64,000 nt of DNA from Chrysoperla carnea (lineage: Eukaryota; Arthropoda; Insecta; Neuroptera; Chrysopidae), in the NCBI RefSeq assembly GCF_905475395.1, contig NC_058338.1, positions 6,338,935 through 6,402,934 on the forward strand, in the 5' to 3' direction. This document shows, one piece after another, positions 5,430-52,100 of this stretch. The position numbers and the translations under genes were made by a program. Position 1 is the stretch's first letter, and every line of letters starts with the position of its first letter. Under the pieces are notes generated by a model. That model did not search any database. It had not been told where the DNA came from and saw only the letters and a program-made list of their open reading frames with translations.

Positions 5430-6169
5430 ATAGATTCCCTTGAGAAACGTATTCCTTTATAATCCTTTGGACTTTGAAGCACCTCCAGATCCAAACTTTT
5501 TTTTTTAAATCTTCTATTCGATTTACATGAATCTACAGAAAAATTTCCTTATGTAAGAGGTAACATTAATATGATCCGATACATTGTCTATGAGAACTCT
5601 TTGATCCAATCATCTCCATAAGCTTCCTTGTTTTATAAAATATGGGTCGAATATGTTTCTGTTAACACTTTAAAGAAAGAAACTCTGTGGCCACACGCCT
5701 CTAAAATTTGACTGTATTACCTTATAATTGATTTATTGGACTAAATTGTTCCAATAAGTTATTGGGACAGCCTTGCCATAAATAATAATAATATGGACCA
5801 GAGAACTATTTATGGGAGGCAGATTAAATCAAAATTGTTTTGCAATTTATATACAAAAGAAAACTGAAAAATTTACATACAATACCTACACATTATGGTA
5901 TTGTGAAATTGTGAGCTAATCTATAAAACGATACAAAACTATAACAGAACCATGATTATCGAAGTATAAATATGTATATTCAATAATGTCTAAACAAAAC
6001 TTAGATTGCTAGAGCACTATTTGTGTCGTAAAGTTGTTGGTTAAACTATAATGCACATTCCAACAAGAATATTATAAACTAAAATGAAGCGAAATTTCTA
6101 TGATTCTTTTTGTCTGAAATTTGGGCAGTTTTAAAAAGAAATGTAAGGACTGACATTCAAAACTTTTTA
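5430..6169. other. Intergenic sequence without recognisable gene
   Basis: AT-rich sequence between the satellite and the first dispersed repeats. There is no open frame with coding character and no terminal inverted repeats that I could find. Confidence 0.4.
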
Positions 6170-6225
6170 TACAAGGTATTTCATCAATTAACTCAATCAA
6201 TTGTTCGTTTTCACTTGCTTTTTTA
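6170..6225 (+). repeat. RepA 3'-end fragment
   Basis: Carries the terminal motif of the RepA family (GGTATTTC, then TCAATTAACTCAATCAATTG, then a T-rich stretch ending CACTTG). Only the 3' end is present. It is followed by an insect-type dispersed sequence (6240-6500) containing phrases such as TCGACTGGGTGAACCGATTT. Confidence 0.55.
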
Positions 6226-8974: not shown

Positions 8975-9375
8975 AGCAAAGTCCTAATTTACGCCCTCAC
9001 GGATAAACAGTGATGTTTACAAAAAATGTTTCAAACAAAAGTTGTTTATTTTTTTGTAAGAAACATTTTTTACATTTAAACTTTAGTTTTATCTCTAACG
9101 GTTTACAAGACCCAATTGACCTATGTTGCACAAGACCCAATTGACCTATTTTTATGTCCCAAGCACGACATAAAAATTTCAGCCCGATATCTTTTTTCGT
9201 TTTGGAGTTATCGTGATCACAGATGGGCAGCCGGACTGATGGACAAACGAAAAACCGAAAATGGACTAATTAAGTGATGTTATGAACACCTATACCAAAT
9301 TATTGTTTGTAGTATCAATATTTCAAAGCGTTAAAGCGTTACAGACTTAGAACTAAACTTAAAAGATCAAAATTA
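8975..9375 (-). repeat. RepA copy, reverse orientation
   Basis: Reverse complement of the RepA body. It shows the 'gggcgcaaatt / tgtttacccg' segment reversed (ACGCCCTCACGGATAAACAG), then GACCCAATTGACCTA, the CCGAAAATGGACTAATTA segment, and ends in the reversed 5' region with GCGTTACAGACTTAG. It is diverged and has no TIR at the right end. Confidence 0.7.
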
Positions 9376-9744
9376 TCTTACCCTTGAAAATGAAAAGGAG
9401 AATGGGTTGGGAAAGCCTTAAATAAGTTTCATTAATATGGGCAAACTAACAGAAATTATTATCAAAAACGCCACTGATAAAAAAGACACAACGTCAAGGC
9501 ATAAAAAAAAACCCAATAAAAGTTTTTATTTAATTTATATTCAACCAAAAATAAACGGGTCAAAAAATCCATTTAAATGTAAAAATTTAATAAAAATGAG
9601 ACTATAAATGTATATTTTAATTTGATTTTCATTGTGTGTTTCTAACAAAATGTATCAAACAATTAACATATTTAACTGTTTTAATACTCTAGTAAATTTT
9701 TAAATTATAATAATCTATTAAACTTACAAAAAAAACAAGTAAAA

Positions 9745-10105
9745 ATAAACAATTGACTGAGTTAATTGTTTAAATATCATGTATAGACAATATTGATTAC
9801 GGAATCGTTTGTTTTTTCGTACGGACCCAAGACCCAGTTGACCTATGATGCTCATTTACGAACTAGACCTCACTCTTTACTTAATGAGCACGCTATAAAT
9901 ATTTCAGCTTAATATCTCTTGTTGTTTTTGAGTTATCGTGTTGACAAACAGACAGACGGACAGACAACCGAAAATGGACTAATTAGATTGATTTTATAAA
10001 CACCTATACAAAAATTTTGTTCGTAGCATCAATATTTTTAAACGTTACCAACATGGGACTAAAGTTAGTATACCTTGATATATTTCATATACACATGGTA
10101 TAAAA
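9745..10105 (-). repeat. RepA copy, reverse orientation, internally deleted
   Basis: Begins with the reversed RepA 3' terminus (AACAATTGACTGAGTTAATT). It continues through GACCCAGTTGACCTATG, the gacagacggacagac tract and GAAAATGGACTAATTAG, and ends with the reversed 5' terminus CATATACACATGGTATA. Both family ends are present, so it is nearly complete apart from an internal deletion. Confidence 0.75.
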
Positions 10106-10109
10106 ATTA

Positions 10110-17018: not shown

Positions 17019-20000
17019 TTAATCATCCGATGACGAATCATTTTCATGATTTTCTTTATTATTCGTAATATCAACCATTTCTATATCAGAATTTTCATCG
17101 TCTTCTTCATCATTGTCGTCTTCATTTGATGAATTTCCATCATCATTCATTTCATTTTCATCCCATTGATCATCCGAATCGGATTGATCATTTATTTCAA
17201 TATTATCATCACTACTGGAATCACTGGAATCTGTTTAACAAAACAAAGGTAATTAATTTAAAATTGAATAATTGATAATAGGGAATATTAATGTATTTTT
17301 ATTTATATTTTTAATTCATTGTTTACACCGTTATAACAAAGTAAAAAATATAAATACTGCTTAAAAATGCTGTATTTAAGTGTAAAAAAATATTTAAAAT
17401 ACATTATAATTTTGAGATATTTAAACGCAGTTTTTTGGCACTCTCTATTGATGACGTATAAGTACGATATCTGTCAATTGGTGACAGTTCAATGTATAAT
17501 TTACACTTTAAAAAAATGAATTTACAACACAGAATTTACATTCGTTATTATTAAGTTTTTTAATAAAAAGCCTTAGAATAATATAATTTAATGAAATACC
17601 ATATAAAATATAAATATTTAATATCATACAGTATGTCAACAAATTTGACAAGCCCGTACTATGATGTCACGTTCGTATAAAAATTTGAATTTCCGTTTTA
17701 GAAATTTTTAAATGACCTCACTGAATTTGTACTTTTATTAATTAATTTTAAGTAATTAAAAATATATTAATTACTAAAATAATGGTTTATTTGAAATGTC
17801 CAGTCATTAAAGTTACGGAAGAAAAATATTTGAACCAAATTTAAATTTTATGAATATTCCCTATTGTGTATGGCATCCTTTCTGACATCTGTCAACTACT
17901 AACCTGGATCTTGATATACTAAAGCAGCCTGTTCAAAATTATCCTCTTCGGTACTTGACGAAATTTGTGTTACCAATAATTCAAGTCGCCCTCGTAATCG
18001 TGACAATGATGGTAATACATTCATTCGATGTGTTATCAAACCTAATGTTGGATGAATTAATTCACTCAATTCTGGATTTGCCAGTAGTTGACTTGCATGA
18101 ATTTGAACAACATGCTTTAACCAAATTGTTCCACTTTGACTCCTAGAAAGAAGAGATATTTGATCTTTAATTTATTAAGGTTTAAAATATTGGCAATAAA
18201 AAGCCAATAATTAAAAAATTTGTTCGTAGCATCAATATTTTTAAGCGTTACAAACTTAGGACTGAACTTAATATACAGGGTATAAAAAAAAAGAAAAGAA
18301 TAGAAAATCGAGATTTATTTTGATAACAAGTTTCAAATAACTTACCACATAGTTTTTCCTTGTATTAAAGCAGTTAATTCACTAATTAACGAACTTAAAA
18401 CTTGTACAGGAAGTCGTTTAACTGTATTCCGTACAATATTTTCATCTTTATTTGCAAAAACTGTTTGTAAAATATGTTTATCTTTGCTATGTAAACCTTG
18501 CACTAATAAATTTGCAACATTATTTGATTTTGGTACAGAACTTGAATCGGGTAAATTAAGAACTAAATTTTCTAAACGTTTTTCCATTGGCACCTCATAA
18601 TTATCTTGTTCTAATTTTCGTTTTGTTGTTATTTTACTGCTTAAATTATTTGGTGCTAAATATTGTATATTTTTTTCCGTTTCTGGTGTTTTTGTTTTCG
18701 ATACGTTTTCTGTACTTTGTATTTTTAATTTTTTTGGATCTGATCGTACTAAACATTGTAATTTTTCGAATGTTGAAATTGTCTGCAAAGAGAATATTTT
18801 AAGGTTGTTATGAAAATAAATCTTATATTTTTTAAGCAATTATGCAGGGTTTTTTGGGACGAAAAATCGATCTAGCTAAATTGTTTTATTTTTAGAAAAT
18901 TTTGTTTTATCCGTGTTTTCAGAGAAAACTGAAACATACTGCAAAATACGACTCTTCCTGACATTTATTGGTGTTTATCGTAGCTAACGAAATAAAGTAC
19001 ATTAGCGGGACATTCAAATTGGTATTTGTGTGAAGACATTTTAAACGGTACTTATATTAGTGATACAATTTGTGTCTTTTTAACTCGAAAAATACCCAGC
19101 AAAGGTCGGTCATCCAGTTCTGTTCTTGGTTTTCGTGAAAAACGATGTCAAAGTTACTTGTTTAAGACAGGTTATTAAATTGTATTATGGGGAAACTTCG
19201 ATAAAAACACTAATTATGGTTCATAACTCGAGACCCAGAAATGACAGCTTCACAAAAAACTAACACAGTATTTATTAAAAAATTCTCATTAAGCAGGAGC
19301 TGTCACAGTGGTGAAGAGGAGGAGACAATGTCTCATCTTCTCTGTTACTGCCCAGCTTATGTCATGAGGAGATGGGCTTATTTGAGCCAGCCTATCTTTG
19401 ACGACCCTCCGACCTAAAGTCAGTCGACGTCAAAGCCCTCCTGCTGTTCTTAAACAGCTCCAAATGGTTCATGGAGTAGTGGCCGGGGATGGGCCAACCC
19501 TTGTACGTAACACAACGAACGTTATGGTCTAAGTGTGTCCCACCCCAGGACAGCAACTCTAACCTAACCTATTCTCAACATTTCCGTTTTTAGTTTTTGA
19601 GATAATTAACAAAAAATTATCACAAAATTAGAGTGATGGTTTGAGCCAAAAAAGAATATAAATTTGGATCAGAAAAGAATACTTACAATTTTTTCGAAGA
19701 CCGTTACATGATAGGCTCCATAACCAATTAAAACTGAGTTCTCATCATCCATAAATGCTGTTAAAATAGGAATTTTACCGATTTCTTTATTCTTTGAATC
19801 ATCTCCAACTGCTATTTGTAATGTTACTTTTGGTTTCAATGGTTTCGCACATTTTCTAAACACAAAAAAAAACCATCACTTTTAAACTGAACAAATCTCA
19901 AATCAATCACCAATACACCAAAATTTTGTTCGTATCATCAATATTTCTAAGCGTTACAAACTTGAGACTAAAATTAGTATACCCTGGATATATATTTCAT

Positions 20001-22022
20001 ATATGCAGGGTTTAACTAGAAAAACTTCGCTCACCCATTTAAAGTCTGCTTATAAATATGTACAACTCCATTTTGTGTCGTTGCAGCCATATTCATTGAT
20101 CCAGAATCGGATGTTACAATCGATATATTACTCGCCACATCTTCCATAATAAATCTTGCAATAGCATTCTGATTATTCGAATTCTCGTTTAAGCTCCAAC
20201 AATTCAAAAATCTGTCTGTCTAAAATATAATTCGAAAAGGTAAAAAATAATTTGTTGTTACATCGGAAAAATCGGGGAAAAAAATATATATATTACCTTA
20301 GCACCACTGATAAAATAGCCATTTGATTCGTCGTCATTTGTAGGCACATATTTTAAAAATTTCACATCGGATGTATGGCCTGTATACTCTTGAATTATTT
20401 CTTTTCGATCATAGTTCCATAATTTTATACTTCTAGATGCGGTCAACAAATAAGGTTTCGATTCCAAAACTAATGCACTGTATACGGTTTCATTTTTATT
20501 GTCTTTCCATTTTCTGTAGAGAAATTAGAAATAATGAAATTTAAATTTGGTTCAAATATTTTTCTTCCGTAACTTTAATGACTGGACATTTCAACTAAAC
20601 CATTATTTTAGTAATTAATATCTTTTTAATTACTTAAAATTAATAAATTAATAATTTATTAATTAATTAATAAAAGTACAAATTCAGTGAGGGCATTTAA
20701 AAGTTTCTTAAACGGAAATTCAAATTTTTATACGGACGTGACATCATAGTACGGGCTTGTCAAATTTGTTGACATACTGTATGATATTAATTACTTACAT
20801 TTTATATGGTATTTCATTAAATTATATTATTCTACAGCTTTTTATTAGAAAACTTAATAATAACAAGTGTAAGTTCTATGTTGTAAATTCATTTTTTTAA
20901 AGTGTAAATTATACATTGAACTGTCACCAATTGACAGATCACGTACTTATACGTCATTAACAGAGAGCGCCAAAAAACTGCGTTTAAATATCTCAAAATT
21001 ATAATGTATTTTAAATATTTTGTTACACTTAAATACAGCATTTTTAAGCAGTATTTATATTTTTTACTTTGTGATAATGGTGTAAACAATGAATTAAAAA
21101 TATTTAAAAAAATACATAAATATTCCCTATTTAGTGGTTCCAGTCAAAAATTTGATTTGGTCCGAAAAAAAATAGTTTTTTGAAAGAATTCTGTTACAAT
21201 ATCACAGAAACTATGGAGCAATTCGATTTATAAGAATCAGATAAATTGTCTCAATGCCATTAAAATAAGAAAGAATATATAACAAAATATTTACGTTTTA
21301 ACAGATCCATCCGCTATATTCCATCGAATAAAATGATTATTACCACACGATATTAAACCACTTCGCATACTCCATGTTAAACAATCAATGTTGGTCACAG
21401 CCGCAGCTTCATCGGAGCCAAGTGTTGTTAAAATTTTCGATTCAAACGGTGAATAAATTAATATTGAACCGGATCTGGTCCCTAACGCTATACACTGTGA
21501 GAATTGTACATCACTGTCGGATCGTTTTCTTTTACGCCATGGTGACTAAAACAAAAATTTTGAACTTGAAATTAGCGTAACACTTATCACAGAAGATAAT
21601 TATTCAAAATCATTAATTATAGGTCCGCCCAACGTCGTTATAACAGATTTTGAACTTCCAAAATGTTTTTAAAACTTATAAGTCAATCAGCTTTTAAATT
21701 TCCGAGAACACTTTTATAAACTAAAATTAACGCATTTAAATGAAACTGATAACTTTTAAAAGTTAATTATAGCTATTCCGAGACACTTTAAAATTAAATA
21801 ATAAAAATTTTTTGAATATATTTTAAGTTATTTAAAGCACATGGTGCTTACCTGATTACTTGATATTTGTATCCATTTTAAGCAAGTGCATGGTTGATTT
21901 AAATGAAGTGATGGTGTATACTCATGTTTCAAAATACTTGTTGATGTTTCCCATATTTTTAGTTTACCATCAACACCCAAAATTGCAAAATATGCACCAT
22001 CTTTTGAAAATTCTGATTCCAT
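17019..22022 (-). CDS. WDR43: WD repeat-containing protein 43 (Utp5 homologue), 8 exons
   Basis: Exons in gene order: 22022-21852, 21545-21295, 20513-20297, 20219-20035, 19855-19687, 18782-18346, 18142-17904, 17230-17019. All introns are GT-AG and the phases join into one 626-residue frame. The N-terminal half is a WD40 propeller (FSKDGAYFAILGVDGKLKIWE near the start; SIKLWNYDRK and YTGHTSDVKFL around 170-195). Residues about 420-540 form the Utp12-type helical domain (ANLLVQGLHSKDKHILQTVF; GTIWLKHVVQIHASQL). The C-terminus is a long Asp/Glu/Ser tail. WDR43 belongs to the nucleolar t-UTP subcomplex of the small-subunit processome, which supports pre-rRNA transcription and 18S maturation. The length is close to that of animal orthologues. 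Introns 2 and 7 are mostly inverted MITE-1 copies; introns 4 and 6 carry sense-oriented RepA fragments. Confidence 0.93.
17279..17864 (+). mobile_element. MITE-1 copy in WDR43 intron 7
   Basis: A ~586-bp element bounded by ATAGGGAATATT and its reverse complement AATATTCCCTAT. It has no ORF of note. It fills most of the 673-bp intron 17231-17903. An inverted copy lies at about 20530-21133; shared blocks include GCAGTTTTTTGGC, GTCAATTGGTGACAG and GTCAACAAATTTGACAAGCC. Confidence 0.85.
18216..18288 (-). repeat. RepA 5' fragment in WDR43 intron 6 (sense to the gene)
   Basis: Reverse complement of the RepA 5' region (TTTGTTCGTAGCATCAATAT, GCGTTACAAACTTAGGAC, ACAGGGTATA). Since WDR43 is on the minus strand, the repeat is in the gene's sense direction. 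Confidence 0.7.
18843..19116 (-). repeat. RepD copy 1 in WDR43 intron 5
   Basis: Reverse complement of a dispersed sequence also found at about 39310-39620. Shared blocks, read in the RepD direction, are CTGGATGACCGA, TTTGCT.GGTAT, the AATAGATGTCAG-like stretch, TAGCTAGATCGA and CCCAAAAAACCC. This copy lacks the inverted duplication seen in the second one. Confidence 0.65.
19295..19572 (+). mobile_element. Non-LTR retrotransposon 3' end with CCTAA tail (LINE-B copy 2), in WDR43 intron 5
   Basis: One frame reads EEETMSHLLCYCPAYVMRRW, the Cys/His-bearing C-terminus common in non-LTR ORF2 proteins. A 3' UTR with GTGTGTCCCACCCCAGGACA follows, ending in CTAACCTAACCTA. It lies antisense to WDR43 and is 5'-truncated. 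Copies sharing this end are at 8040-8222 and, more distantly, 46683-46845 (minus). Confidence 0.8.
19910..20012 (-). repeat. RepA 5' fragment in WDR43 intron 4 (sense to the gene)
   Basis: Reverse complement of the RepA start (AAAATTTTGTTCGTATCATC, AAGCGTTACAAACTTGAGAC, then the terminal TATATTTCATATATGCAGGG). It occupies over half of a 179-bp intron, in the sense direction of the gene. Confidence 0.7.
20530..21133 (-). mobile_element. MITE-1 copy in WDR43 intron 2 (inverted relative to the first)
   Basis: Near-identical reverse complement of 17279-17864. The right terminus AATATTCCCTAT at 21120-21131 is intact; the left terminus is eroded (AGAAATAATG instead of GGGAATATT). It occupies most of the 781-bp intron 20514-21294. 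Confidence 0.83.
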
Positions 22023-23424: not shown

Positions 23425-23718
23425 ACAACACTAAGTTTAGTCCCAAGTTTGTACCTCTAAAAAATATTGATCCTATGAACAAAATTTTGGTATAGGTGTT
23501 AACAAACACAGTAAGTCCATTTCCGGTTGCTCTCTGCCGGTCTGTGGACACGAAAAGAAATATCAAACTAAAATTTTTATAGCGTGCTTAGGACGTAAAA
23601 AATTAGATCAAGTTCGTAAATGAGCAAGATGGATTAATAAACACCTTTTCTTTGTAACATTTTTTCGTAAACATCACTGTTTACCCGTGAGGGCGCAAAT
23701 TAAGTTAGAACATTATAG
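23425..23718 (+). repeat. RepA copy abutting the SINE
   Basis: Runs from TAAGTTTAGTCCCAAGTTTG through TTGGTATAGGTGTTAACA, GTCCATTTCCGGTTG, TTTTATAGCGTGCTTAGGAC and TTTTTTCGTAAACATCACTG to GTGAGGGCGCAAATTA. Internal deletions are present and the 3' terminus is missing. Confidence 0.75.
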
Positions 23719-23719
23719 T

Positions 23720-24138
23720 ATTACAAATATATGTTTTCTTAAAAACTACTCTTTTGCTCCTATAATTATCCCGTTGAAAACCGAACAAGATAATTATTTT
23801 AAATTTTAAACTCTTTTGCTTATACTAAAAAAAATGACAAATAAACTAAAAAGGCTTCTATCTGCCACGTACAAGTACAATGATTTGCAATTAAAATAAA
23901 ATCTTCATCACTCTATTACTATTAAAAACATATTTTAATATTGCTGCATCATAAAAAAAAAATAAACATAGATTACTACAAATAAAATAATTATCATTAT
24001 CTTATTGTCAATAAACTTGACACCATCTTCACAATCCATCTACGAATAACTATCCAAAAATTGCAGAACATAATAAACTTCTAAATTCTAGATAATTTAT
24101 GGCAAAAAAAAAATCATAATATAAGGTAGATAAATTCT
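23720..24138. other. Intergenic AT-rich sequence
   Basis: No feature recognised. Confidence 0.4.
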
Positions 24139-25059: not shown

Positions 25060-28000
25060 ATGTTAATCATAGCACTAGTGATTTTAACAATTATTGTGGC
25101 ATGTTATTGGTATTTAGTGGCACCGTTAAGTCATTGGGAAAAACGTGGTATACCTTACGTAAAAGGGTACCCAATTGTGGGTAACTTCTTTTGGCATGCC
25201 ATTAAAAAAACATCTATAGGGGACGATTTGATGACACTTTACCATGCGTATCCAGAAAAAAAGTAAATAATACATTTAGATCTAAATCTTTTTGCCAGAA
25301 CATTGTAAATAATTTGTATACCCTTGAAACTCGAGAAATAAGTTTTATCGATCAAAATGCTCAAAAATACAAAAAATCTTGGATGTGTAGGCGCATATCT
25401 TACGCAGACATTAAATTTGACCAATGTTTTCAAGCTCAATGAAGAGGTGACTACTCCATAAATGGTAATCGATAGATGAAAACTTTAAAGTAGAAAGTTG
25501 TTATTGATTAAAAAAGCGACATTTTTTGTTCGAAACATTTTTCCGCAAACCGTACAGTTTAGTCAAAAACGGACTGACATGCTTTACCCAAAATTGTAAA
25601 AGTATTTTCTGAAACATCATTAGAAAATTTCTGAAAACTGAGAAATGGAGGCCAAAAGTGGTCGCCAAAATTTAATAGATTTTTTAAACTTTTCAAATTT
25701 ATTAAAAATAATGCAGCCACTGAGTATTTCAACAATTATCTCAGTCAATTTGTTTATTTTCATTTTTGTTTGTTTCAATTTTAGATGTTACGGAATGTTT
25801 TTATTTGGAAGACCAGCAATATTTGTTCGTGATTTAGATCTGATTAAGAATGTATTAATTAAAAATTTTGATCATTTTGGTGACCATTCCGATTCGATAT
25901 TTTTGAATGGTATTAATCCGGTTGTAGATCGAAATCTATTCTCTTTAACCGGTAAGATAATTTTCCATATTCCCATTTTTAAATAAAATTTCAATAAAAG
26001 ACCTCGCCCAACTTCAGCCAAGGGTCTCTAAACTTAGGATAAACTAAAATTGTCATCAAATAAATTTATCATTAATCAGGGAATGATTGGCGAGACATGC
26101 GAACAACCTTAAGCCCGGCATTTACTGGTAGCAAAATGCGTGGAATGTTTCAATTAATGGCTGATGCTGGAGAAAATTTTGTTAATTACTTTATAAATGA
26201 AGCTAAAAAGAATGGTGGTAAACCATTGAATGTGGAGTTAAAAGAAATTTTTACACGACTTACAAATGACGTTATTGCAACAACTGCTTTTGGAATTAAA
26301 ATTGATTCTTTACGCGATCGAAATAATGATTTTTATCGAATGGGTGGAATGGTCTCAAATTTTTCAACATGGCGATGGCTCTTAAGTAATTTTCTCCCAC
26401 ATGTAGCTAGAGTAAGTATATTCGAAACTTTGGTAGAGGTTTTCATAGAATTACCTAAGTAGTCCATTTCCGTTTGTCCGTCTAACAATCTAAGTCAATT
26501 GAGTCTTGGATTACGGTAGGATCCATCTTGTAAAACGTTAGAGAGAGAATAAAAGTTTTAATATGAATCTTGTGAAAGATTTTCGAAAAAAAAAAAATTT
26601 GTTAGCAAACACTTCAACAAGTTTTGGGAATTTTCAAATCTAGAACAAATGGGCCAACGAAATAGTTAACTATACAGGGTATTTCAACAATTAACTCAGC
26701 CAGGTGTTTTTAATTTTCAGTTTTTCCGTATTGGTTTGATTCCTAATGAACCCATCGATTATCTTCGAAAGATCGCACTTGAAACCATAAACATTCGAGA
26801 ACGTGATAATATTTATCGTCCAGATATGTTACAACTGTTAATTGAAGCTAAAAATGGTTTGTTAAAACAGACTGATACAAACGAAGAAATAAATAAAGGA
26901 TTTGCCGCTGTAGAAGAATCAAAATTAGTTCAAACAAATAAAAAAATTCGTAAGACCTTTTGAACACATTAGGTGAAAATTATTTTTGTTGATTTTTGTT
27001 TTCTTTGGTAGATTTGGGTGAAGATGATTTAGCGGCACAAGCTTTTGTATTCTTTTTGGGTGGATTTGAAACTGTATCTGCAGGTTTATGTTTTGCTGTT
27101 TATGAACTGGCCCTCAATCCTGACATACAGCAACGCCTTTACGAAGAAAACGAAAAAATTTTGAACGAAAATAATGGGAAACTTACATACGATGTTTTAA
27201 ACAAAATGAAATATTTAGATATGATTATGTCAGAAACTTTACGAAAATGGACAATAGCAGCCTTTTTGGAACGAATGTGTATCAAACCATATACTGTTGA
27301 AGTGGAGAAGGGTAAAAACATCACTTTAGAGAAAGGAACAGTTTTATTTTTCCCAGTTTGGGCTTTGCATCGTAATCCCGAATACTACCCTAATCCAGAA
27401 AAATTTGACCCAGAACGTTTTAGTGATGAGAATAAAGATAAAATAAATCCAACTACATATTTACCTTTTGGAACTGGCCCAAGAAATTGTATTGGTAAGT
27501 AAACAAAATTTGAATTTTGTAGAAAAAATTAGATATATTGCGAATTATAGTCTCGCGATCTGTGAGAAAATTATACAAATTATCCGAAATCTTCGAAATC
27601 TTAGTTGGTAATAGGTAGTAGCCAACTCCAATTTTTGACCCAAAAAGTACAAAAATCGGGTGCATTTGATGACTGGTCGAATAGTTTTCGAGATACAGAC
27701 TAAAATCTATCAAAATATTGCGATATCTCAGAAACTTTGCATCCAATCATTAAACCAACCTGATTTTTATACTTTTTGGGTCAAAATTACCTCATCCACC
27801 GAGTTTCATCAAATTCCAAAACAAAATATTTTTTGCGATTTTCTCGATTTTTTCAAAGGGGTACCCCTTAAAAAAATGACAAAAAATCGAAAAAATTTTT
27901 TTAACTCCAATTTCGATAAAACTCAGTATATAAGGTAATTTTGACCCAAAAAGTACGAAAATCGCCTGCATTTGATGACTGGTCGAATAGTTTTCGAGAT

Positions 28001-31000
28001 ACAGACTAAAATCTATCAAAATTATGCGATATCTCAGAAACTTTGCATCCAATCATTAAACCAACCTGATTTTTATACTTTTTGGGTCAAAATTACCCTA
28101 TCTACCGAGTATCATCAAATTCCAAAACAAAATATTTTTTGCGATTTTCTCGATTTTTTCAAAGGGGTACCCCTTAAAAAAATTGCAAAAAATCGAAAAA
28201 TTTTTGCTATCTCCAATTTCTATAAAACTCAGTTTATAAGGTTATTTTGACCCAAAAAATACAAAAATCGGGTGCATTTGATGACTGGTCGAATAGTTTT
28301 GGAGATACGGACGAAAATCGATCCAAATATTGCGATATCTCAGAAACTTTGCATCCAATCGTTAAACCAACCTGATTTTTATACTTTTTGGGTCAAAATT
28401 ACCCCATTCACCGAGTTTCATCAAAATCCAAAATAAAATATTTTTTGCGATTTTCTCGATTTTTTCAAAGGGGTACCCCTTAAAAAAATTGCAAAAAATC
28501 GAAAAATTTTTTTTATCTCCAATTTCGATAAAACTTAGTATATAAGGTAATTTTGACCCAAAAAGTACAAAAATCGCCTGCATTTGATGACTGTTCGAAT
28601 AGTTTTTGAGATACGGATTAAAATCGATTTAAATATTGCGATATCTCAGAAACTCTGCATCAGAGTTATTATACCATGTATATATGAAATATACATAGTA
28701 TATTAAGTTTAGTCCAAAGTTTGTAACGCCTAAAAATATTCATGCTACGAAAAAAATTTTGGTATAGGTGTTCATAGAATCACCTAATTAGTCCATTTCC
28801 GGTTGTCCGTCCGTCCGTCCGTCCGACCGTCCGTCCGTCCGTCCGTCCGTCCGACCGTCCGTCCGTCCGTCCGTCCGTCCGTCCGTCCGTCTGTGGACAC
28901 GATAACTCAAAAACGAAAAGAGATATCAAGATGAAATTTTTATAGCGTACTCAGGACCTAAAAACTGAGGTCAAGTTTGTAAATGAGCAATATGGGTTAA
29001 TTGGGTCTTGGGTCTGTAGGACCCATCTTGTAAACCGTTAGAGATAGAACAAAAGTTTAAGTGTAGAAAATGTTCTTTATAAAAAAATAAACAACTTTTG
29101 TTTGAAAAAATTTTTTGTAAACTTCACTGTTTACCCAAGAGGGCGCTTATTAGGTTCAAATTTTATAGCATGCATTAATTTGGGAATATCAGTGTGTGTG
29201 TAGCTATTTTATTATTATTATTATTATTATTTATTTTCACCATAAGATACAAACGTACATAGGTATAGTCAACATGAAAATTAAATAAATTAAATTAAAC
29301 TATAAATAAATTAAATTAAACTGTATGGGCACGACGTTACAATATGCTTCTTCAGCTCACGTTTAAATTTTGGCATGCTCTCTATGTTTTTTAACTCTCC
29401 GGGAAGATTATTGTACAATTCACTTCCAATAATTTCCGGAGAGTTTTTGAACTTTTGCAATCTGTAGTTTGCAATATGCAAATCATTATTATGACGAGTG
29501 TTATAATCATGTATTTCATTTCTAAGTGGTAGGTTTTGATAATTTTTTCTGATAAATATTAATAGCTCGTAGTAATAAATGCCATAAAATGTTAGCAAAT
29601 TATTCCGCTTAAAATGATTAACACATGATTCTCGATAATCAAGATTAAACATGAGCCGAATAATTCTTTTTTGTAGTATAAATATTCGTGTACAATCTGA
29701 ACATTGTCCCCATAATATTACACAATACTGCATGGCAGCATATACAAACGCATAATACACAGCCAATAAAGCTTCAGTGTTATGAGTTTGTTTTAATTTT
29801 TTGATATAAAAATAAGCCGTGCCTAACTTTTTACACACTGTATCCACATGTCGATTCCATTTCATACCTTCATCCAGAATTATACCTAAAAATTTCATTT
29901 CGCTTACTTGCGTAATCGGATATTTTATTGATGACGTAATAATTGATGCATCAATAACTTTATTTTTAAAAACTAAAAATGTTGTTTTAGTCATGTTTAT
30001 AATTAAATGATTATTTTTGCACCAATCAGCAAATTGTTGTATTACAATATTCATTTCATTCATTAAACTATGTATATTATCTGAAGATAATATCACAGAG
30101 GTATCATCTGCATACATTAATAATTTACCATACTGTATAAAGGACGGAAGGTCATTTATGTAGGTCAAGAACAATAATGGTCCAAGATTTGAGCCCTGTG
30201 GAACTCCAATGTTGACACAGAGTGGGCTTGATTTTATACCTTCAACATCCGTTATTATTTTTCTATTATCTAAATAGGACATAAACCAGGAAAGTGGAAG
30301 TCCTCTTATCCCAAGACTTTCTAATTTATTTAACAAAAACCTGTGATTTACCATGTCGAAGGCTGAAGTTAAATCAAAAAATAGTGATAAAACATATCTT
30401 TTTTTATCAAGTTCTTTTAGAACATGATGCGCAAATTCATTACTTGCAGAGCAAGTAGAGTGTTTGGGTCGGAATCCATGTTGGCATTTAGTCAAGATGT
30501 TTTCCGTTTCTAAAAACTCAGAGAGTCTATTGTACATGATTTTTTCTAAAATTTTAGCAAATTGCGGTAGTAAAGATATAGGTCGGTAATTTTCAGGCTT
30601 CGACATTTCACCTTTCTTAAAAATTGGTTTTATCATACTGATTTTTAAAATATCAGGAAATATCCCACATTCAAAAGATAGATTGTAAATATAAACTAGC
30701 ACTTCCGCTAATTGGGATAAGTTTTCTTTTATAAGTTTAATAGGTATTTCATCAACTCCACATGAAAATTTGTTCTGCATTGATGAAACAATATTAATCA
30801 ATTCTAACTTAACTACTGGTCGTATAAAGAACGATTTAATGTTAAGGCACATTAATATTTGATTTTCTACCAACTCATTATTGTGGTTTTGTCGGAGTTT
30901 TTCGATAGCAGCTGTTGCAAAATATTTGCAGAAAGTTTCTGCATTATCTTTTTTATCAGTGCATAACGAACCATCCTCACTCATTAACTTAATTTCCCCG

Positions 31001-33209
31001 TTATTAGGCCTCTTTCTGCCTAAAGAATCGTTAATAATTAACCATTGTTCTTTAGTGCGATTGCTACATTCAAGCATTCTGTGCTTAAATAGCACAGATT
31101 TTGCTTTTTGAATGTTGCCTTTATACTCATTTTTTTGTTGTTTGTATGCTTGCATTAATCGGCTATTGTTACTAGCCTGGGCTAAATCGTATAAGTTTTT
31201 TAACCTCTCACTTTCCTGTATTATGTCGGAATTAATCCAGTCATTTTTTTTATTTATTTTGTTTTGAGTTTTTTTATTGGTATACTAACATCAACATAAA
31301 ATTGAAAAATTTGCCAGAAAGCATTGTAAGCATTATTAATATCAACACACGCATACACATTATTCCAGTCAGCAGAATTTAACAACCAAGTGAAATACTG
31401 CATATTTGAATAAGTGAATGCTCTTTTATAAATATTATTTACACAATTGTCATTTTCAAATTCATTAATACACAGCTCAAGAAATTGACCTTTGTCATGA
31501 TCCGATATACACGTCGATATGTTAGCTATTTTATAATAATTATAATAATCTATATTATTAATAATCATGTAATCGATACAACTGCTGGTAGATGTAGTTG
31601 TACGAGTTGGTTCTGATACCAAATTTTTTAATTTGTACGAATTTAAAATATCTAACAATCGTCGTTTAGCTGTAGTCTCACTCAAATAATCAATATTTAA
31701 ATCACCACAAACGATGACATTGTTTTTTTCTGACCTTAAATATTCTAAAAGTCGAACAAAGTTTTGTTCGAACAATGTTATATCCCCATCCGGGGCTCGG
31801 TAAATAGTCACTAATAATAATTTTTCTTTATTTTTCTTATACACTATACCCGCACATTCGAAATGAATTTCCAAGTATAGGCTTTTTAACTCAATTTCTT
31901 TCACATATTTATTAATGTTACTTTTTGAAAATATCACTACACCTCCATGTTTTCTGGTTTTGCGGCAGCAAGACGCAGCTATGGAATAATTGTTTGGTAA
32001 ACAACAACTTAGTGAGTTTTCATTTTGCCAATGTTCCGTTAAGCATAAGAAGTCAATATCATACTTCTTAATGATAACTTCAACTTGCTCAACTTTATTA
32101 AACAAACTTTGGATGTTTTGGTGGAGTATTTTTGTTCGAAGTTTTAAATTATTCATTCTCGATGATTCTTTTATGAGTCTTCCATTTTTGTTTTTAAATT
32201 CTCCCAGGTTGTTGCCTACGAAAAAAATACCTTTTTACTATTGCCCCTTTTGGCCAAAAACTTCCATCGTACATGGTATCCTCGAGATCCGCATTGGCTG
32301 CTATCTTAAAGCAGGCATTTGTTCCTTTTGTTTCCAGTTTTGACACCTCAAATATTTTACCAGGAATTTTTCCTTGTAAATAATGGAGTATTTGCTCTTC
32401 GGTGGTAGTTGCGTTCATTCGTCCAAGGAAAATCCATAACTTTCGGTCAGCAGCAGAGATTGATTCAGGTTCATTTGAATTCCCAACTACTACTCTTCTT
32501 TTCCGTCTTCTTACTTCCGTAAATCCATCTGAATCCTGATATTGTCCACTATTGCTTCCTCCAGGATTAATAGTATTAATATCAGGATTAGGCATTACTC
32601 TATTTATAGCCAAATCCTTAATAAGTTTTTGTGCGTATGTCACTTGCTTAGTTTTCTGTGGATCGTTCGTTTTTTGTTTACTGTTTGTTGTTGTTTGGTT
32701 TGCGCCTCGACTAATTGTACTTAGCTGAAATTGATTATTCTCAGTACCTTGCATATCATTATTTTGGTTCACAACTTGGCTTAATGTATTCAACTCCATT
32801 ATTTCTCCATATTTAACTCCATATTTAAAAGTGGATATCTTTTTTTATTAACGTGACGTCAAAAAACAAACGATTGCTTCATCAACACTGTCTATATATG
32901 GTATTTCAACAATTAACTCAGTCAATTGTTTGTTTTCACTTGTTAGTATTATGATTGTGAAGAATTAAAAATTGATACAATTTATTTTTAATGCAATATA
33001 CGCTCAAATTATTATTTATTTTTATAGGGTCAAGATTTGCATTGATGGAAGCAAAAATGGCAGTATTTTATATGGTTAAATATTTTGAAATAATTCCAAA
33101 TGAAAAATCAATGATTCCACCAAAGGTCACAACGAAAAGTGTGAATACAACTTTAGAAAATGGATTTCATGTAGCATTAAAATTAAGAGAACATTGTGAT
33201 ATTAAATAG
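25060..33209 (+). CDS. Cytochrome P450, CYP9-like (CYP3 clan), 6 exons
   Basis: Exons: 25060-25262, 25785-25951, 26080-26411, 26721-26949, 27012-27494, 33028-33209; phases join into 531 residues, the usual length. An N-terminal membrane anchor (residues about 2-20) precedes a proline hinge and IPYVKGYPIVGN. Later motifs are helix C W127xxxR131 in WRDMRTTLSPAFTGSKMR (typical of CYP9), helix I GGFETVS (327-333, Gly in place of the commoner Ala), helix K ETLR (385-388), PERF (444-447) and the haem-binding FGTGPRNCIG with Cys470. The protein would be an ER-bound monooxygenase; CYP9 enzymes often act on insecticides and plant compounds, but the substrate here cannot be read from sequence. All catalytic residues are present. 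The last intron (5.5 kb) splits the haem-binding loop and contains a retrotransposon; introns 1, 3 and 5 carry RepA near their acceptors. Confidence 0.93.
25500..25775 (+). repeat. RepA copy in P450 intron 1 (sense)
   Basis: Diverged body (TTTTTGTTCGAAACATTTTT, CCGCAAACC.TACAGTTTA) and a clear 3' terminus at about 25725-25770 (GTATTTCAACAATTATCTCA, then T-rich). The terminus lies 15-60 bases before the exon 2 acceptor at 25784. Confidence 0.6.
26430..26705 (+). repeat. RepA copy that makes up almost all of P450 intron 3 (sense)
   Basis: Starts TTTGGTAGAGGTTTTCATAG about 18 bases after the donor. It runs through CCTAAGTAGTCCATTTCCG, GGATCCATCTTGTAAAACG and GTTAGAGAGAGAATAAAAG to the terminal GGTATTTCAACAATTAACTC, about 15 bases before the acceptor at 26720. 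The intron is only 309 bp. Confidence 0.75.
27633..28670. repeat. 306-bp tandem array with internal palindrome, P450 intron 5
   Basis: TTTTGACCCAAAAA starts at 27633, 27939, 28245 and 28551, an exact 306-bp period with about 3.4 copies. Within each unit TTTTGACCCAAAAAGTA is matched by its reverse complement TACTTTTTGGGTCAAAA about 130 bases later, so every unit can form a hairpin. Another constant block is TCAAAGGGGTACCCCTTA, itself palindromic around GGGGTACCCC. Open frames of 60-97 codons on both strands are products of the repeat. Confidence 0.92.
28668..29207 (+). repeat. RepA copy, left part, interrupted by a LINE
   Basis: The most complete RepA copy. It begins TTATACCATGTATATATG, then TAAGTTTAGTCCAAAGTTTG, a (CCGT)n run, GACACGATAACTCAAAAACG, GGACCCATCTTGTAAACCG and TAAACTTCACTGTTTACCC. 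It stops in GTGTGTGTAGCTATTTTA where the LINE tail begins, and resumes at about 32829. Confidence 0.85.
28805..28891. repeat. (CCGT)n microsatellite inside RepA
   Basis: About 21 CCGT units with two CCGA variants. Other RepA copies have a short gtctgtctgtc tract at the same place, so this is an expansion of a family-internal tract. Confidence 0.9.
29311..31155 (-). CDS. LINE-A ORF2, reverse transcriptase part
   Basis: 614 codons from the first ATG of this frame; the frame is open further upstream to about 31250 and joins the endonuclease part. Reverse-transcriptase motifs are in order: KPENYRPISLL (about 190), QHGFRPKHST (about 225), the first catalytic Asp in FFDLTSAFD (about 260), GVPQGSNLGPLLF (about 320) and YADDTS (about 348). 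The C-terminal region is a non-LTR type thumb and tail with no RNase H motif. All catalytic aspartates are present, so only the upstream frame break prevents a complete ORF2. Confidence 0.93.
   Translation of the reverse strand: MQAYKQQKNEYKGNIQKAKSVLFKHRMLECSNRTKEQWLIINDSLGRKRPNNGEIKLMSEDGSLCTDKKDNAETFCKYFATAAIEKLRQNHNNELVENQILMCLNIKSFFIRPVVKLELINIVSSMQNKFSCGVDEIPIKLIKENLSQLAEVLVYIYNLSFECGIFPDILKISMIKPIFKKGEMSKPENYRPISLLPQFAKILEKIMYNRLSEFLETENILTKCQHGFRPKHSTCSASNEFAHHVLKELDKKRYVLSLFFDLTSAFDMVNHRFLLNKLESLGIRGLPLSWFMSYLDNRKIITDVEGIKSSPLCVNIGVPQGSNLGPLLFLTYINDLPSFIQYGKLLMYADDTSVILSSDNIHSLMNEMNIVIQQFADWCKNNHLIINMTKTTFLVFKNKVIDASIITSSIKYPITQVSEMKFLGIILDEGMKWNRHVDTVCKKLGTAYFYIKKLKQTHNTEALLAVYYAFVYAAMQYCVILWGQCSDCTRIFILQKRIIRLMFNLDYRESCVNHFKRNNLLTFYGIYYYELLIFIRKNYQNLPLRNEIHDYNTRHNNDLHIANYRLQKFKNSPEIIGSELYNNLPGELKNIESMPKFKRELKKHIVTSCPYSLI
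31254..32156 (-). CDS. LINE-A ORF2, APE-type endonuclease part
   Basis: 300 residues. Endonuclease motifs: HQNIQSLFNKV (Asn of motif I, residues about 13-23), LCLTEHW (catalytic Glu), TIYRAPDGD, CGDLNIDY, SCIDYMI and the C-terminal ISDHDKGQF (Asp-His pair). The frame closes at 31254 within an A-rich stretch, while the downstream reverse transcriptase continues in another frame. That is what a single-base indel in the A run would produce. It starts 37 bases after the ORF1 stop. Confidence 0.9.
   Translation of the reverse strand: MNNLKLRTKILHQNIQSLFNKVEQVEVIIKKYDIDFLCLTEHWQNENSLSCCLPNNYSIAASCCRKTRKHGGVVIFSKSNINKYVKEIELKSLYLEIHFECAGIVYKKNKEKLLLVTIYRAPDGDITLFEQNFVRLLEYLRSEKNNVIVCGDLNIDYLSETTAKRRLLDILNSYKLKNLVSEPTRTTTSTSSCIDYMIINNIDYYNYYKIANISTCISDHDKGQFLELCINEFENDNCVNNIYKRAFTYSNMQYFTWLLNSADWNNVYACVDINNAYNAFWQIFQFYVDVSIPIKKLKTK
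32194..32799 (-). CDS. LINE-A ORF1, RNA-binding-type protein
   Basis: 201 residues. The N-terminal half is Asn/Gln/Thr-rich and looks disordered. A basic segment DGFTEVRRRKRR (about 90-101) is followed by a compact domain (about 118-195: KLWIFLGRMNATTTEEQILHYL) that looks RRM-like by its spacing. Non-LTR ORF1 proteins coat the RNA; no CCHC knuckle is visible here. Confidence is high for position and origin, lower for fold. Confidence 0.75.
   Translation of the reverse strand: MELNTLSQVVNQNNDMQGTENNQFQLSTISRGANQTTTNSKQKTNDPQKTKQVTYAQKLIKDLAINRVMPNPDINTINPGGSNSGQYQDSDGFTEVRRRKRRVVVGNSNEPESISAADRKLWIFLGRMNATTTEEQILHYLQGKIPGKIFEVSKLETKGTNACFKIAANADLEDTMYDGSFWPKGAIVKRYFFRRQQPGRI
32829..32945 (+). 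repeat. RepA copy, right part, P450 intron 5 (sense)
   Basis: Resumes after the LINE with AGTGGATATC, ATTAACGTGACGTCAAAAAA, then TATATATGGTATTTC and the terminal CAACAATTAACTCAGTCAAT and CACTTGTTA. It ends about 80 bases before the exon 6 acceptor at 33027. Confidence 0.85.
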
Positions 33210-37414: not shown

Positions 37415-37965
37415 CTTAACAATTGACTGAGTTAATTGTTGAAATACTCTGTATAGCAAGTGTTGAATGTCAGTGCTTGTATTTTTTTTATATAATTAAT
37501 TAGAAGAGTTTAAGAAATCAACACAATTATGTTTATAGCCATTGATTTGCTTTCCGAATTTCATAAATTTTCGATTTGCTAGATTTTTTCCCGTTTTTCC
37601 AGAATGTTACACAATACCACTAGTTGAAGCTATCTTCAAATTTTCAACGCCCTATCTTTTATAGTTTTTTTGTTATATCTTTAACCGCTTACAAGATGGC
37701 TCCTACAAATCCAAGACACCTAATTGAAATATGTTGCTCATTTACGAACTAAAATTCACTTTTTACGTCCTGGGTACGCCATAAAAATTTTAACTAAATA
37801 TCTCTTTTCGTTTTTGAATTATCGAACAGGCGGACAGACAACCAGAAATGGGCTAATTAGGTGATTTTATGAACAACTATACCAAAATTTTGTTGGAAGC
37901 ATCAATATTTCTAAGCGTTACAAACTTAAGACTAAACTGAGTATACCTTGATATATATATTTCAA
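37415..37965 (-). repeat. RepA copy, reverse orientation, intergenic
   Basis: Starts with the reversed 3' terminus (AACAATTGACTGAGTTAATT). It runs through CAAGATGGCTCCTACAAATC, GACACCTAATTGAAATATG, ACCAGAAATGGGCTAATTAG and AAGCGTTACAAACTTAAGAC to TATACCTTGATATATATATT. It is moderately diverged. Confidence 0.75.
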
Positions 37966-49100: not shown

Positions 49101-52100
49101 TAAATAGTAGTTGTATTAATGCAGTAAATCTATCAACGATATACAACGCATACTCTTATATATTGCTAATCTGTGCACATAGTATAGGAAGCAGCACATG
49201 TTGACAGAACATGAATAAATTGAACAACATTGCCGTTTGTATAATTCACTTCTGGATTAGACTAAATATTCGTAAAAAATAATTTTTGTTTATTGTTTTT
49301 TCGTAAAGTTACTACTATAAGAAATAAAGATGGAAAAAGGTCACATAAGGTTGTAATTTTATGGAACAATATGACTTTTTATGGGATTCGACTCAAAATT
49401 TTCGTATGAGTCTGTTCAAGAAAGTCATATTTTTAGAGATTCACCCAAGCTAATTCTGCTGAAAAATCATGAAGTTGGACCTTACGTTTTGGGATATTCT
49501 AAGCATTTTTATCAGTCGCAACATTGCCTATTCCCCTTCCAGATCATTTCCCCCATCTGAAATGCTTCTGATTATAAATAATATACAAAAAGAATCATTT
49601 TGAAAAAAAAATCGTCAAAATTGGAGCTGTTATTGAGGACTCCCGAGTAAAAACATTCATTGATGCGACTACTCATGTCTTTAGAAATTATTCAAGAATA
49701 AAATTTAGTATCAAAACTAACTCATTTAATTGTTTAAACATCTTATTTTCATTGAGTTGAAATAACTATATATACGTATTATTTTTGAGTTAAAATAAAT
49801 AACAAAACTAAAAATTGAATTTATGAGTTATAATCTGAATAATGAGTACAACGAACGGATTAATTGAGGGCGAATGCATACTGATTATCCTTGAAATTTA
49901 TCCTTGCCAGTAAAAGTTACTTTTATATTGACTTTGGAAATTGATTGTCTGATTTCTGATACAAGGTCTGAGAATCCACCCTTCAAAAAACATGTTAATA
50001 CTAAAAGATATATGATTCAAATATTTCTGTTTAAAGGCGTTAAAAAATCAGACAAGCTAATTATAAATACTTTGACTTTTGTCTTTAGCTGTTAGGAATA
50101 TGTCATTCTGATATTTTTCTAAACCTTTATAAACCTAGGATCATTTTTTAAGATCAATTTCATAAAATATTTTAACTTAATTATGGAGGTTATTTTGATT
50201 TTTTAAAATTATATCAAGTTTCCTAAATCGTACTAATACAGAGTTGTTGAAAACATATATAAAATTAACTTAATTTCTATACTAAACATACGAATTATAT
50301 TAATTTATAATTTTTGATATTATTTTACCAATTAAATTAAATTTATGATTTATATGAATTATAAAAATTTATAATTTTCGTCCGTCATATTTACTCGAGT
50401 CAAAAGACGATTATTTATTATTTTTAGTACCTACTTATATAATAAAACATAAATCCGTGATTAAATAATTACATGAATCCGTGATCCGTACAAGTGATGT
50501 TAGATGCTATCTAAATTATATAATTAATTTACAGATTAAAATTTTTAATTTTTGTTATGGTGTTTCTAGCATGAAAGCACTCGTCAACAAATTTTTTTTC
50601 ACAGTCTCAGAATAATGTTAGCTGTGAGATCTGGAAGTTAATAAAAATATAAGGTTATCAATGATATAGCAACAAAATTTTAATTTAATTATGAGTTCAT
50701 CGAACATCCATCATTTGATGAACAGAGACGACTATAGTTATGGGTATTGATGATTGAAGAGCGATATCTATATTATCAAATTTATAAGCATTACTTGCAA
50801 ACAATATATTATAAATTTTTTATTTTAAAGTTAAAAATAACACATTATTTCACTACAAAGCATGTATTTGGTTTATATGTATGTGCCGTGCAATAAACCA
50901 AAACTTTTTTACAATACTGTAGGTTTACAATCACCTTAAACACTTGTTATACCATGTATATAAATTATACCAAGGTATACTAAGTTTAGTCCCAAGTTTG
51001 TAACGCTTAAAAATATTGATGCTATGAACACAATTTTTTTATATTTGTTCATAAAATCACCTAATTAATCTATTTCCGTTTGTCTGCCTGTCTGTCGTCT
51101 GTCTGTCTGTCATCGCGATTACTCAAAAACGAAAAAAGATATCAAACTGAAGTTTTTATAGCGTGCTGAGGACGTAAAAAGAGAGGTCGAGTTCGTAAAT
51201 GAGCAAGGACTACCATCTTGTAAACCGTTAGAGATAGAGCAAAAGTTTAAATTTAAAAAATGTTTCTTATAAAAAACAAAACAACTTTTGTACGAAACAT
51301 TTTTTCGTAAACATCACTGTTTACCCGTGAGTGTGCAAATTATGCGCAAATTGTCTAGTATGTATTATCAGTGTTATCAACACTATCTATACATAGTATT
51401 TCAACAATTAACTCAATCAATTGTTTGTTTTCAGTTGTTATATAATATAATATTAAAGATTACATCTCATTAAGATGTTATAGTTCACATAATCATATAA
51501 ACAGTAAAATTTCATTTTATAATTCTTTTATTATAATATTGTATTATGTATTACATAAACAGTAATGTAAGGCCTATTAAATTTTATACACCATATATAC
51601 TCATATGTATAATAAATGTATACCTACTATTTATAAACAACATAAAGAAAGAGAAAGTTTTTGTTTGATGATAGGACATGAACATGACAGACTCTATTTG
51701 CTGATATTTTTTATATTAAATAAAGAAATATACTTATATTTTACAATACTGTAAACACACTTACTTATAGTGAATTACATAAACTGTTTTTTTATTATTA
51801 TTAGTAAAATTCTTTATTAGTCTAAGAGCTGTGTGCCCATAATCAAGATATATTACCTACGGAAGCCTGAATGTCGCACTGTCAATTCATGAGAAAGTGG
51901 CGCTACACTAGCTTATTATTTAAATATGTACTACCCACTAGTTTAAACCAACTAGTTCATTTTCAGCAAGTGAACTTGTGGCATTATGGAAACAAACCTT
52001 TTTGAAGATGTCAGTCGGTGATGACTATCCTTTAATTAGCCACTACCGAAACTGTCTGCAATTATTAATAATTGTATGTCCGGATTTAATAATAATATGA

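Follow-up and report, generated by a model that had tools for sequence, protein, structure and literature searches.

The P450 gene of this locus raises the question of why the 3′ terminus of a dispersed repeat, RepA, lies just upstream of the splice acceptor in three of its five introns. An earlier note on this DNA had proposed that RepA is an introner-like element bringing its own 3′ splice signals or, alternatively, that it inserts next to acceptors. We analyzed the window, that is, the whole 64,000-nt stretch of Chrysoperla carnea DNA containing the gene, and consider it probable that RepA is an ordinary DINE-1-like element, of the type called HINE, which was inserted in pre-existing short introns, with its own end possibly exapted as a 3′ splice site in intron 3.

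The spliced frame of the P450 gene (Table 1) is open over 531 amino acids, and the protein matched the Pfam p450 family with an E of 1.8e-89 and had CYP3A4 as its best relative among PDB chains (E 4.9e-73). Judged by this comparison, it is closest to CYP3-type sequences, as a putative member of the CYP3 clan should be. In insect CYP3-clan genes, a phase-1 intron is conserved at the glycine that binds heme, and intron 5, if it is that intron, would be old. The alignment with CYP3A4 is ungapped where introns 3 and 5 interrupt the gene and has gaps in the vicinity of introns 1, 2, and 4; ungapped junctions would be compatible with old introns and also with exact introner splicing, and hence the alignment does not decide. 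The number of introns varies among genes of CYP9, the label used for this gene in the earlier note: those of the honeybee are described as intronless (PMC1761136) and two CYP9A genes of Helicoverpa zea as having nine introns (PMC1852546); in the accessible parts of the literature on CYP9 and CYP6 genes, no usable intron positions were found. An enrichment of transposable elements near xenobiotic P450 genes has already been published (PMC1852546).

The repeat itself exceeds chance in the window. The TTTCAACAATTAACTCAG motif, when up to three mismatches were allowed, occurred nine times compared with a mean of 0.27 in shuffles, and three of the nine occurrences were those in P450 introns 1, 3, and 5, all on the strand of the gene. 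The distance from the end of the motif to the end of the intron was 40, 21, and 106 nt in introns 1, 3, and 5, respectively, and that from the 3′ end of RepA, with element ends set by eye, was 16, 0, and 83 nt, the value for intron 3 being entered as 0 because the alignment overruns the acceptor by a few bases. The nearness to acceptors described in the earlier note was, hence, borne out by measurement, and so was its description of the 309-bp intron 3 as almost wholly RepA, which extends from 26425 to the end of the intron and leaves only 13 nt at the donor that are not RepA-derived. This copy is without the first 93 model positions and without the microsatellite region. Divergence was unequal among the P450 copies, with an identity to the profile of 64% in intron 1, 66–83% in intron 3, and 91% and 75% for the 5′ and 3′ parts in intron 5, the copy in intron 5 having itself helped build the profile. 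The intron 5 copy is interrupted by a 3.6-kb LINE, a non-LTR retrotransposon with three long open frames (reverse transcriptase, endonuclease, and a third at 32194-32844), the ends of which share the 8-mer TTTTATTA in A/T-rich sequence as a possible 8-bp duplication. A 306-bp tandem array, which has internal inverted symmetry, precedes RepA in this intron.

Table 1. Positions, in window coordinates, of the P450 gene, the copies of RepA, and associated features.
Feature	Position	Strand	Details
P450 gene, CYP3-clan-like, 6 exons	25060..33209	+	open spliced frame, Pfam, PDB match
P450 exons, stop codon included	25060-25262, 25785-25951, 26080-26411, 26721-26949, 27012-27494, 33028-33209	+	
P450 intron 1	25263-25784		522 nt, phase 2
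P450 intron 2	25952-26079		128 nt, phase 1, without RepA
P450 intron 3	26412-26720		309 nt, phase 0
P450 intron 4	26950-27011		62 nt, phase 1, without RepA
P450 intron 5	27495-33027		5533 nt, phase 1
RepA copy in intron 1, diverged, with 3′ terminus	25459..25768	+	TTATC replacing TTAAC; nhmmer E 3.6e-9, 64% identity, outside profile set
RepA copy in intron 3	26425..26725	+	alignment passing acceptor at 26720; nhmmer E 1.6e-11 and 1e-19, 83% and 66% identity, outside profile set
Candidate RepA-derived 3′ splice site in intron 3	26691..26720	+	TTAAC (A 26 nt from end), T-rich tract, TTTTCAG matching TTTTCAC of the element
306-bp tandem array in intron 5	27633..28661		3.4 units, 92% matches, immediately 5′ of RepA
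RepA copy in intron 5, 5′ part	28666..29206	+	nhmmer E 1.1e-145, 91% identity, in profile set; alignment stops at 29179, 29206 being the presumed LINE junction
Non-LTR retrotransposon nested in intron 5 RepA	29207..32850	-	open reading frames; RVT_1 E 1.4e-37, Exo_endo_phos E 1.4e-12
3′ part of intron 5 RepA copy, including 3′ subTIR, palindrome, and terminus	32843..32944	+	nhmmer E 1.4e-20 over 32830-32945, in profile set; 32843 being the presumed LINE junction
Utp12-domain gene (split domain)	17895-20513	-	Pfam E 6.5e-6 and 9.9e-6 for two domain halves, both below the cut-off of Pfam
RepA 5′ fragment in 203-nt intron of Utp12-domain gene	18214..18283	-	sense, no 3′ terminus
RepA 5′ fragment in 179-nt intron of Utp12-domain gene	19913..20016	-	sense, no 3′ terminus
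RepA 3′ end fragment	6157..6223	+	no gene identified
RepA copy without 3′ terminus	8982..9362	-	no gene identified
RepA copy with both ends	9730..10109	-	no gene identified
RepA copy without 3′ terminus	23428..23720	+	upstream of P450
RepA copy with motif and palindrome	37418..37956	-	last bases diverged; no gene identified
RepA copy with both ends	50944..51445	+	TTTTCAG terminus; no gene identified
RepA copy with 3′ terminus	55024..55412	+	no gene identified
Ost-alpha-like transporter exons	61296-61562, 62868-63206		Pfam Solute_trans_a

The anatomy of RepA was determined from an alignment of ten copies or fragments with their flanks and from a four-copy profile compared with the window. The element, which was 380–643 bp long in the five fuller copies measured, starts with ATACCATGTATA and has a TATACATGGTAT-like 3′ subTIR, followed by the palindrome AACAATT..AATTGTT and the end TTTTCACTTGTT, the terminus being located ~40 nt beyond the 3′ subTIR by hand count. 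In the three copies tested, the 5′ ATACCATGTATA matched the reverse complement of the 3′ subTIR at 11/12, 11/12, and 10/12 positions. A partial inverted repeat, GGTATA, follows soon after the 5′ subTIR in four of the five copies printed; it lies 25–29 nt from the start in three copies keeping the 5′ start, and the intron 5 copy has the variant GTATAT. The microsatellite consists of 21.8 units of GTCC at 28805-28891 in the intron 5 copy and of a GTCTGCCTGTCTGTC unit at 51082-51111, and it is short in the other copies and missing in intron 3. When eight 3′ ends were folded, the palindrome was paired in the copies at 9730-10109, intron 5, and 37418-37956, different pairings were formed at 50944-51445 and 55024-55412, and the fold was weak in intron 1 and absent in intron 3 and at 6157-6223. 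With ends set by eye, TT immediately precedes the 5′ end in four of five copies (P 0.002), and the upstream flanks of these five contain 48 T and 27 A in 100 nt; in the downstream flanks of six copies, the counts of T and A are about equal (51 and 45 of 120). In the single copy examined for coding capacity, at 50944-51445, no open stretch exceeded 64 codons, and that of 64 codons is antisense. Thus, subterminal inverted repeats (subTIRs, 11–15 bp long in such elements), a GTCY microsatellite, a 3′ palindrome or stem-loop, insertion at TT or T-rich sites, and a lack of coding capacity were all found, in agreement with the structural features described for DINE-1, mini-me, and HINE elements (PMC2374699, PMC4067079, PMC3630058). 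On that agreement, RepA is most likely a DINE-1/mini-me-like non-autonomous Helentron (HINE), assigned by structure.

The resemblance is to several described systems. Like DINE-1/INE-1/mini-me of Drosophila, as reported in the available text of PMC2374699, RepA has ATACC-type subTIRs, a partial inverted repeat after the 5′ subTIR, a GTCY microsatellite, and a stem-loop after the 3′ subTIR, prefers TT, is noncoding, and has many intronic copies, although its subTIR is ATACCATGTATA compared with ATACCCGTTACTC in Drosophila melanogaster and the two are likened by features and not by sequence alignment. In the 11 Drosophila species tabulated there, DINE-1 has 262–1,104 intronic insertions and 0–15 in coding sequence per species, an unremarkable distribution if insertions in exons are purged; an RNA aftermath of intronic INE-1 in flies has been described for DIP1 and SON (PMC6881055). 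Helitron2_Cv of Calliphora vicina, also non-autonomous, is described with 11-bp subTIRs, a partial inverted repeat, a GTCY protosatellite, and a 3′ hairpin (PMC3630058), and the likeness to RepA is again one of description and not of sequence, the consensus being 750 bp compared with the 380–643 bp of the five RepA copies. The HINEs of Metaseiulus occidentalis (PMC4067079) share with RepA subTIRs of 12–15 bp, a short 3′ palindrome, and T-rich targets, with 38–60 nt between the 3′ subTIR and the terminus compared with ~40 nt in RepA; an autonomous Helentron partner was found for these HINEs, whereas RepA is described here from its copies in the window. A preference of HINEs for TT and T-rich sites has been published (PMC2374699, PMC4067079).

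The distribution of RepA in the window was determined by nhmmer using a profile built from four copies (50944-51445, 55024-55412, 9730-10109, and intron 5), which match by construction. Of 26 rows, 11 with an E of at least 0.046 were excluded and 15 were kept, representing 12 copies; weak blastn rows near 15059, 33756, and 49715-49807 and a three-mismatch motif match at 49721 were excluded as well. The copies are dispersed on both strands, seven on the plus and five on the minus strand. Five are in identified introns, three in the P450 gene and two in a Utp12-domain gene, and the remaining seven are outside any identified gene or intron, the gene search being weak around those copies. The Utp12-domain gene, which we take to be WDR43-like, has a single open frame over five exons, with introns of 77, 179, 904, and 203 nt. 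Its two RepA fragments show 90% and 88% identity, and the acceptors of the introns that hold them are host sequence. RepA is, hence, present in five of the nine introns of the two genes, always in the sense orientation, and this 5/5 agreement (one-sided P 0.03) is suggestive only. The 3′ terminus is retained in three of the five intronic copies and in five of the seven others. The profile search showed no RepA between the two Ost-alpha-like exons, and no match to RepA patterns was obtained in viral contigs or in the genome contigs of collections among which we found no insect genomes.

The nearness of RepA to acceptors was compared with that expected from the lengths of the introns. The RepA-free introns of the two genes are 62, 77, 128, and 904 nt long, and the RepA-bearing introns, minus RepA, amount to 75 and 133 nt in the Utp12-domain gene and to 212, 13, and 225 nt for P450 introns 1, 3, and 5, respectively, the last value excluding the LINE and the array and rising to 1254 nt when the array is counted. 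Under uniform sense insertion, the probability that all three RepA ends lie within 83 nt of the acceptor was 0.147 from the residues of the introns themselves, 0.32–0.43 from pooled intron lengths, depending on the introns pooled, and 0.026 if the 306-bp array predates RepA in intron 5. Fisher's method on the exact distances gave 0.32, or 0.11 counting the array, and the plain products of the exact-distance probabilities were 0.030 without the array and 0.005 with it. These estimates give no good evidence for the targeting of RepA to acceptors, a result that is conditional on the age order of the array and RepA. Insertion next to acceptors held as a matter of geometry and is mostly accounted for by the shortness of the introns, though one assumption gives the P of 0.026.

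With regard to splice signals, YTNAY branch candidates were listed within 130 nt of the acceptor for all five P450 introns. The scan is weak, as the RepA-free intron 2 has candidates only at 11 and 4 nt. In intron 1, the TTAAC of the element is mutated to TTATC, and the RepA terminal region contains the candidates TTTAT and TTCAT at respective distances of 28 and 22 nt from the end of the intron; RepA-derived sequence could, therefore, still serve as the branch site. In intron 5, 111 nt separate TTAAC from the intron end, and candidates in host sequence are found at 36, 43, and 52 nt; in intron 3, TTAAC is inside RepA and 26 nt from the end. The earlier note had pointed to TTAAC as a branch-point-like feature of the terminus, which is suitably positioned in intron 3 and not in intron 1, where it is lost, or in intron 5, where it is distant; TTAAC as a branch point common to the three introns was rejected for these reasons. 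The TTTTCAG at the end of intron 3 aligns to the TTTTCAC of the element only with a 3-nt insertion just before it, and a terminal AG is present in two of the eight RepA copies keeping the 3′ end, one of which is the non-intronic copy at 50944-51445 (TTTTCAG). Intron 3 may use a RepA-derived 3′ splice site, but the likeness could also be no more than that of two T-rich sequences, a host acceptor and the end of the element. The proposal that RepA brings its own 3′ splice signals is, hence, tenable for intron 3, whereas intron 1 offers RepA-derived candidates other than the TTAAC originally named.

Introners are repeats that form introns; according to the available text of PMC9860276, of 175 genomes with introners, 161 showed their enrichment in genes, and their splice sites are recruited from the element, its target duplication, or the neighboring exon. 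Intron 3 is like them in being nearly one repeat throughout and in that its splice signal could be drawn from that repeat; beyond intron 3, RepA shows none of these traits. It is not confined to introns, is not seen to supply a donor, and does not bound most of the introns that bear it: the element is flanked on both sides by non-RepA sequence in introns 1 and 5 and in the two introns of the Utp12-domain gene, only intron 3 coming close to coincidence of boundaries, and among all copies the only splice site possibly contributed is the acceptor of intron 3, with no donor seen. That introns 1, 3, and 5, or intron 3 alone, arose by insertion of RepA into coding sequence is extremely unlikely. Although the composition of intron 3 and the ungapped alignment with CYP3A4 at its junction would fit such an origin, the donor of intron 3 is 13 nt outside alignable RepA, introns 1 and 5 contain 212 and 225–1254 nt not recognized as RepA, seven of the twelve copies are outside identified introns and the copies occupy both strands, the Utp12-gene introns contain 5′ fragments only and have host acceptors, and DINE-1s are described as rare in coding sequence (PMC2374699). 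As a general introner, RepA was rejected for its dispersal, its anatomy, and the 5′ fragments in the Utp12-gene introns, and the introner-like character proposed earlier was not supported in the comparisons made within the window, given the occurrence of RepA outside introns and on both strands, the lack of any copy seen to supply a donor, and the DINE-1-like anatomy. In a literature search of partial coverage, no paper on Helentrons acting as introners was recognized. Another reading is that the RepA 3′ terminus is a ready-made 3′ splice site (TTAAC, T-tract, and TTTTCA[C/G]) that now replaces the host signals in a pre-existing intron 3, which we regard as possible while leaning against it. 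The TTAAC at 26 nt within RepA, the TTTTCAG in place of TTTTCAC, the same ending of a non-intronic copy, and the sense orientation of all five intronic copies are consistent with it, but the last bases align only via the 3-nt insertion, a T-rich acceptor can mimic the element end by chance, the terminal AG is found in only two of eight copies, no fold of the palindrome was obtained for intron 3, and the branch scan is weak, giving no candidate beyond 11 nt in the RepA-free intron 2.

The orientation of the intronic copies bears on two further readings. The orientation of HINEs may be fixed on their entry into TT or T-rich sites, so that sense pyrimidine tracts would draw sense insertions upstream of acceptors, which appears to us somewhat doubtful. 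The TT before the 5′ end, the T-rich upstream flanks, the published preference for such sites, the uniform sense orientation, the copy at 18283, which comes after a T-tract on the sense strand, and the P of 0.026 obtained for nearness with an array older than RepA all point in this direction; the numbers are small, however, T and A are almost balanced in the downstream sequence, and the Utp12-domain gene accounts for two of the five upstream flanks, which are sense-strand sequence of its introns. Alternatively, antisense intronic copies could have been harmful and lost, with sense copies remaining, which would yield the same 5/5 orientation but is unlikely, given that only five copies in two genes are concerned and no mechanism was seen. 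We also considered, as a very unlikely extension, that the HINE 3′ terminus is a portable 3′ splice site, that sense insertions are thus tolerated, and that one of them made or remade P450 intron 3 outright by providing branch, tract, and acceptor; if this were true, rolling-circle HINEs would be a source of introns in insects.

The reading that we favor, namely that of an ordinary DINE-1-like HINE in short introns, would proceed as follows. RepA copies, presumably moving by a rolling-circle mechanism, would have been inserted at T-rich sites region-wide, including the introns of the P450 and Utp12-domain genes, which were probably already present and short. An element of ~380–640 bp that enters an intron of ~60–230 nt cannot end much farther from the acceptor than the length of that intron, and the pattern of termini near acceptors would, therefore, result from a large element in a short intron. 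The acceptor of intron 5 is host sequence, as are branch candidates suitable for it, and in intron 1, the acceptor is likewise that of the host, with the TTAAC of the element lost and other branch candidates persisting in the RepA terminal region. A later deletion would have left nearly only RepA in intron 3, the RepA 3′ end of which may have become the branch site, the pyrimidine tract, and, by the change from TTTTCAC to TTTTCAG, the acceptor. Several findings are against this account: the uniform sense orientation (one-sided P 0.03) is unpredicted by short introns alone; intron 3 minus RepA is 13 nt, too short unless deletion took the rest; the P of 0.026 and the product of 0.005 apply if the array is older than RepA; one RepA-free intron of the Utp12-domain gene has 904 nt, so that not all introns are short; and the counts of T and A hardly differ in the downstream flanks of six copies. 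A dispersed non-autonomous Helentron can thus imitate an introner, as in short introns any large insertion ends near the acceptor, and the intron 3 locus together with the 5/5 sense bias provides concrete handles on a possible exaptation of HINE ends as 3′ splice sites.

Other repeats were also observed in the window. Positions 1181-5020 consist of a nested tandem satellite, the 161- and 202-nt periods of which recur every ~525 nt. A 132-bp array at 43060-43469 (3.1 copies, 95% matches) ends directly before an open frame of 124 codons at 43470-43844, which has no Pfam match, and a 30-bp repeat array of 12 copies at 42292-42650 yields repetitive open frames.
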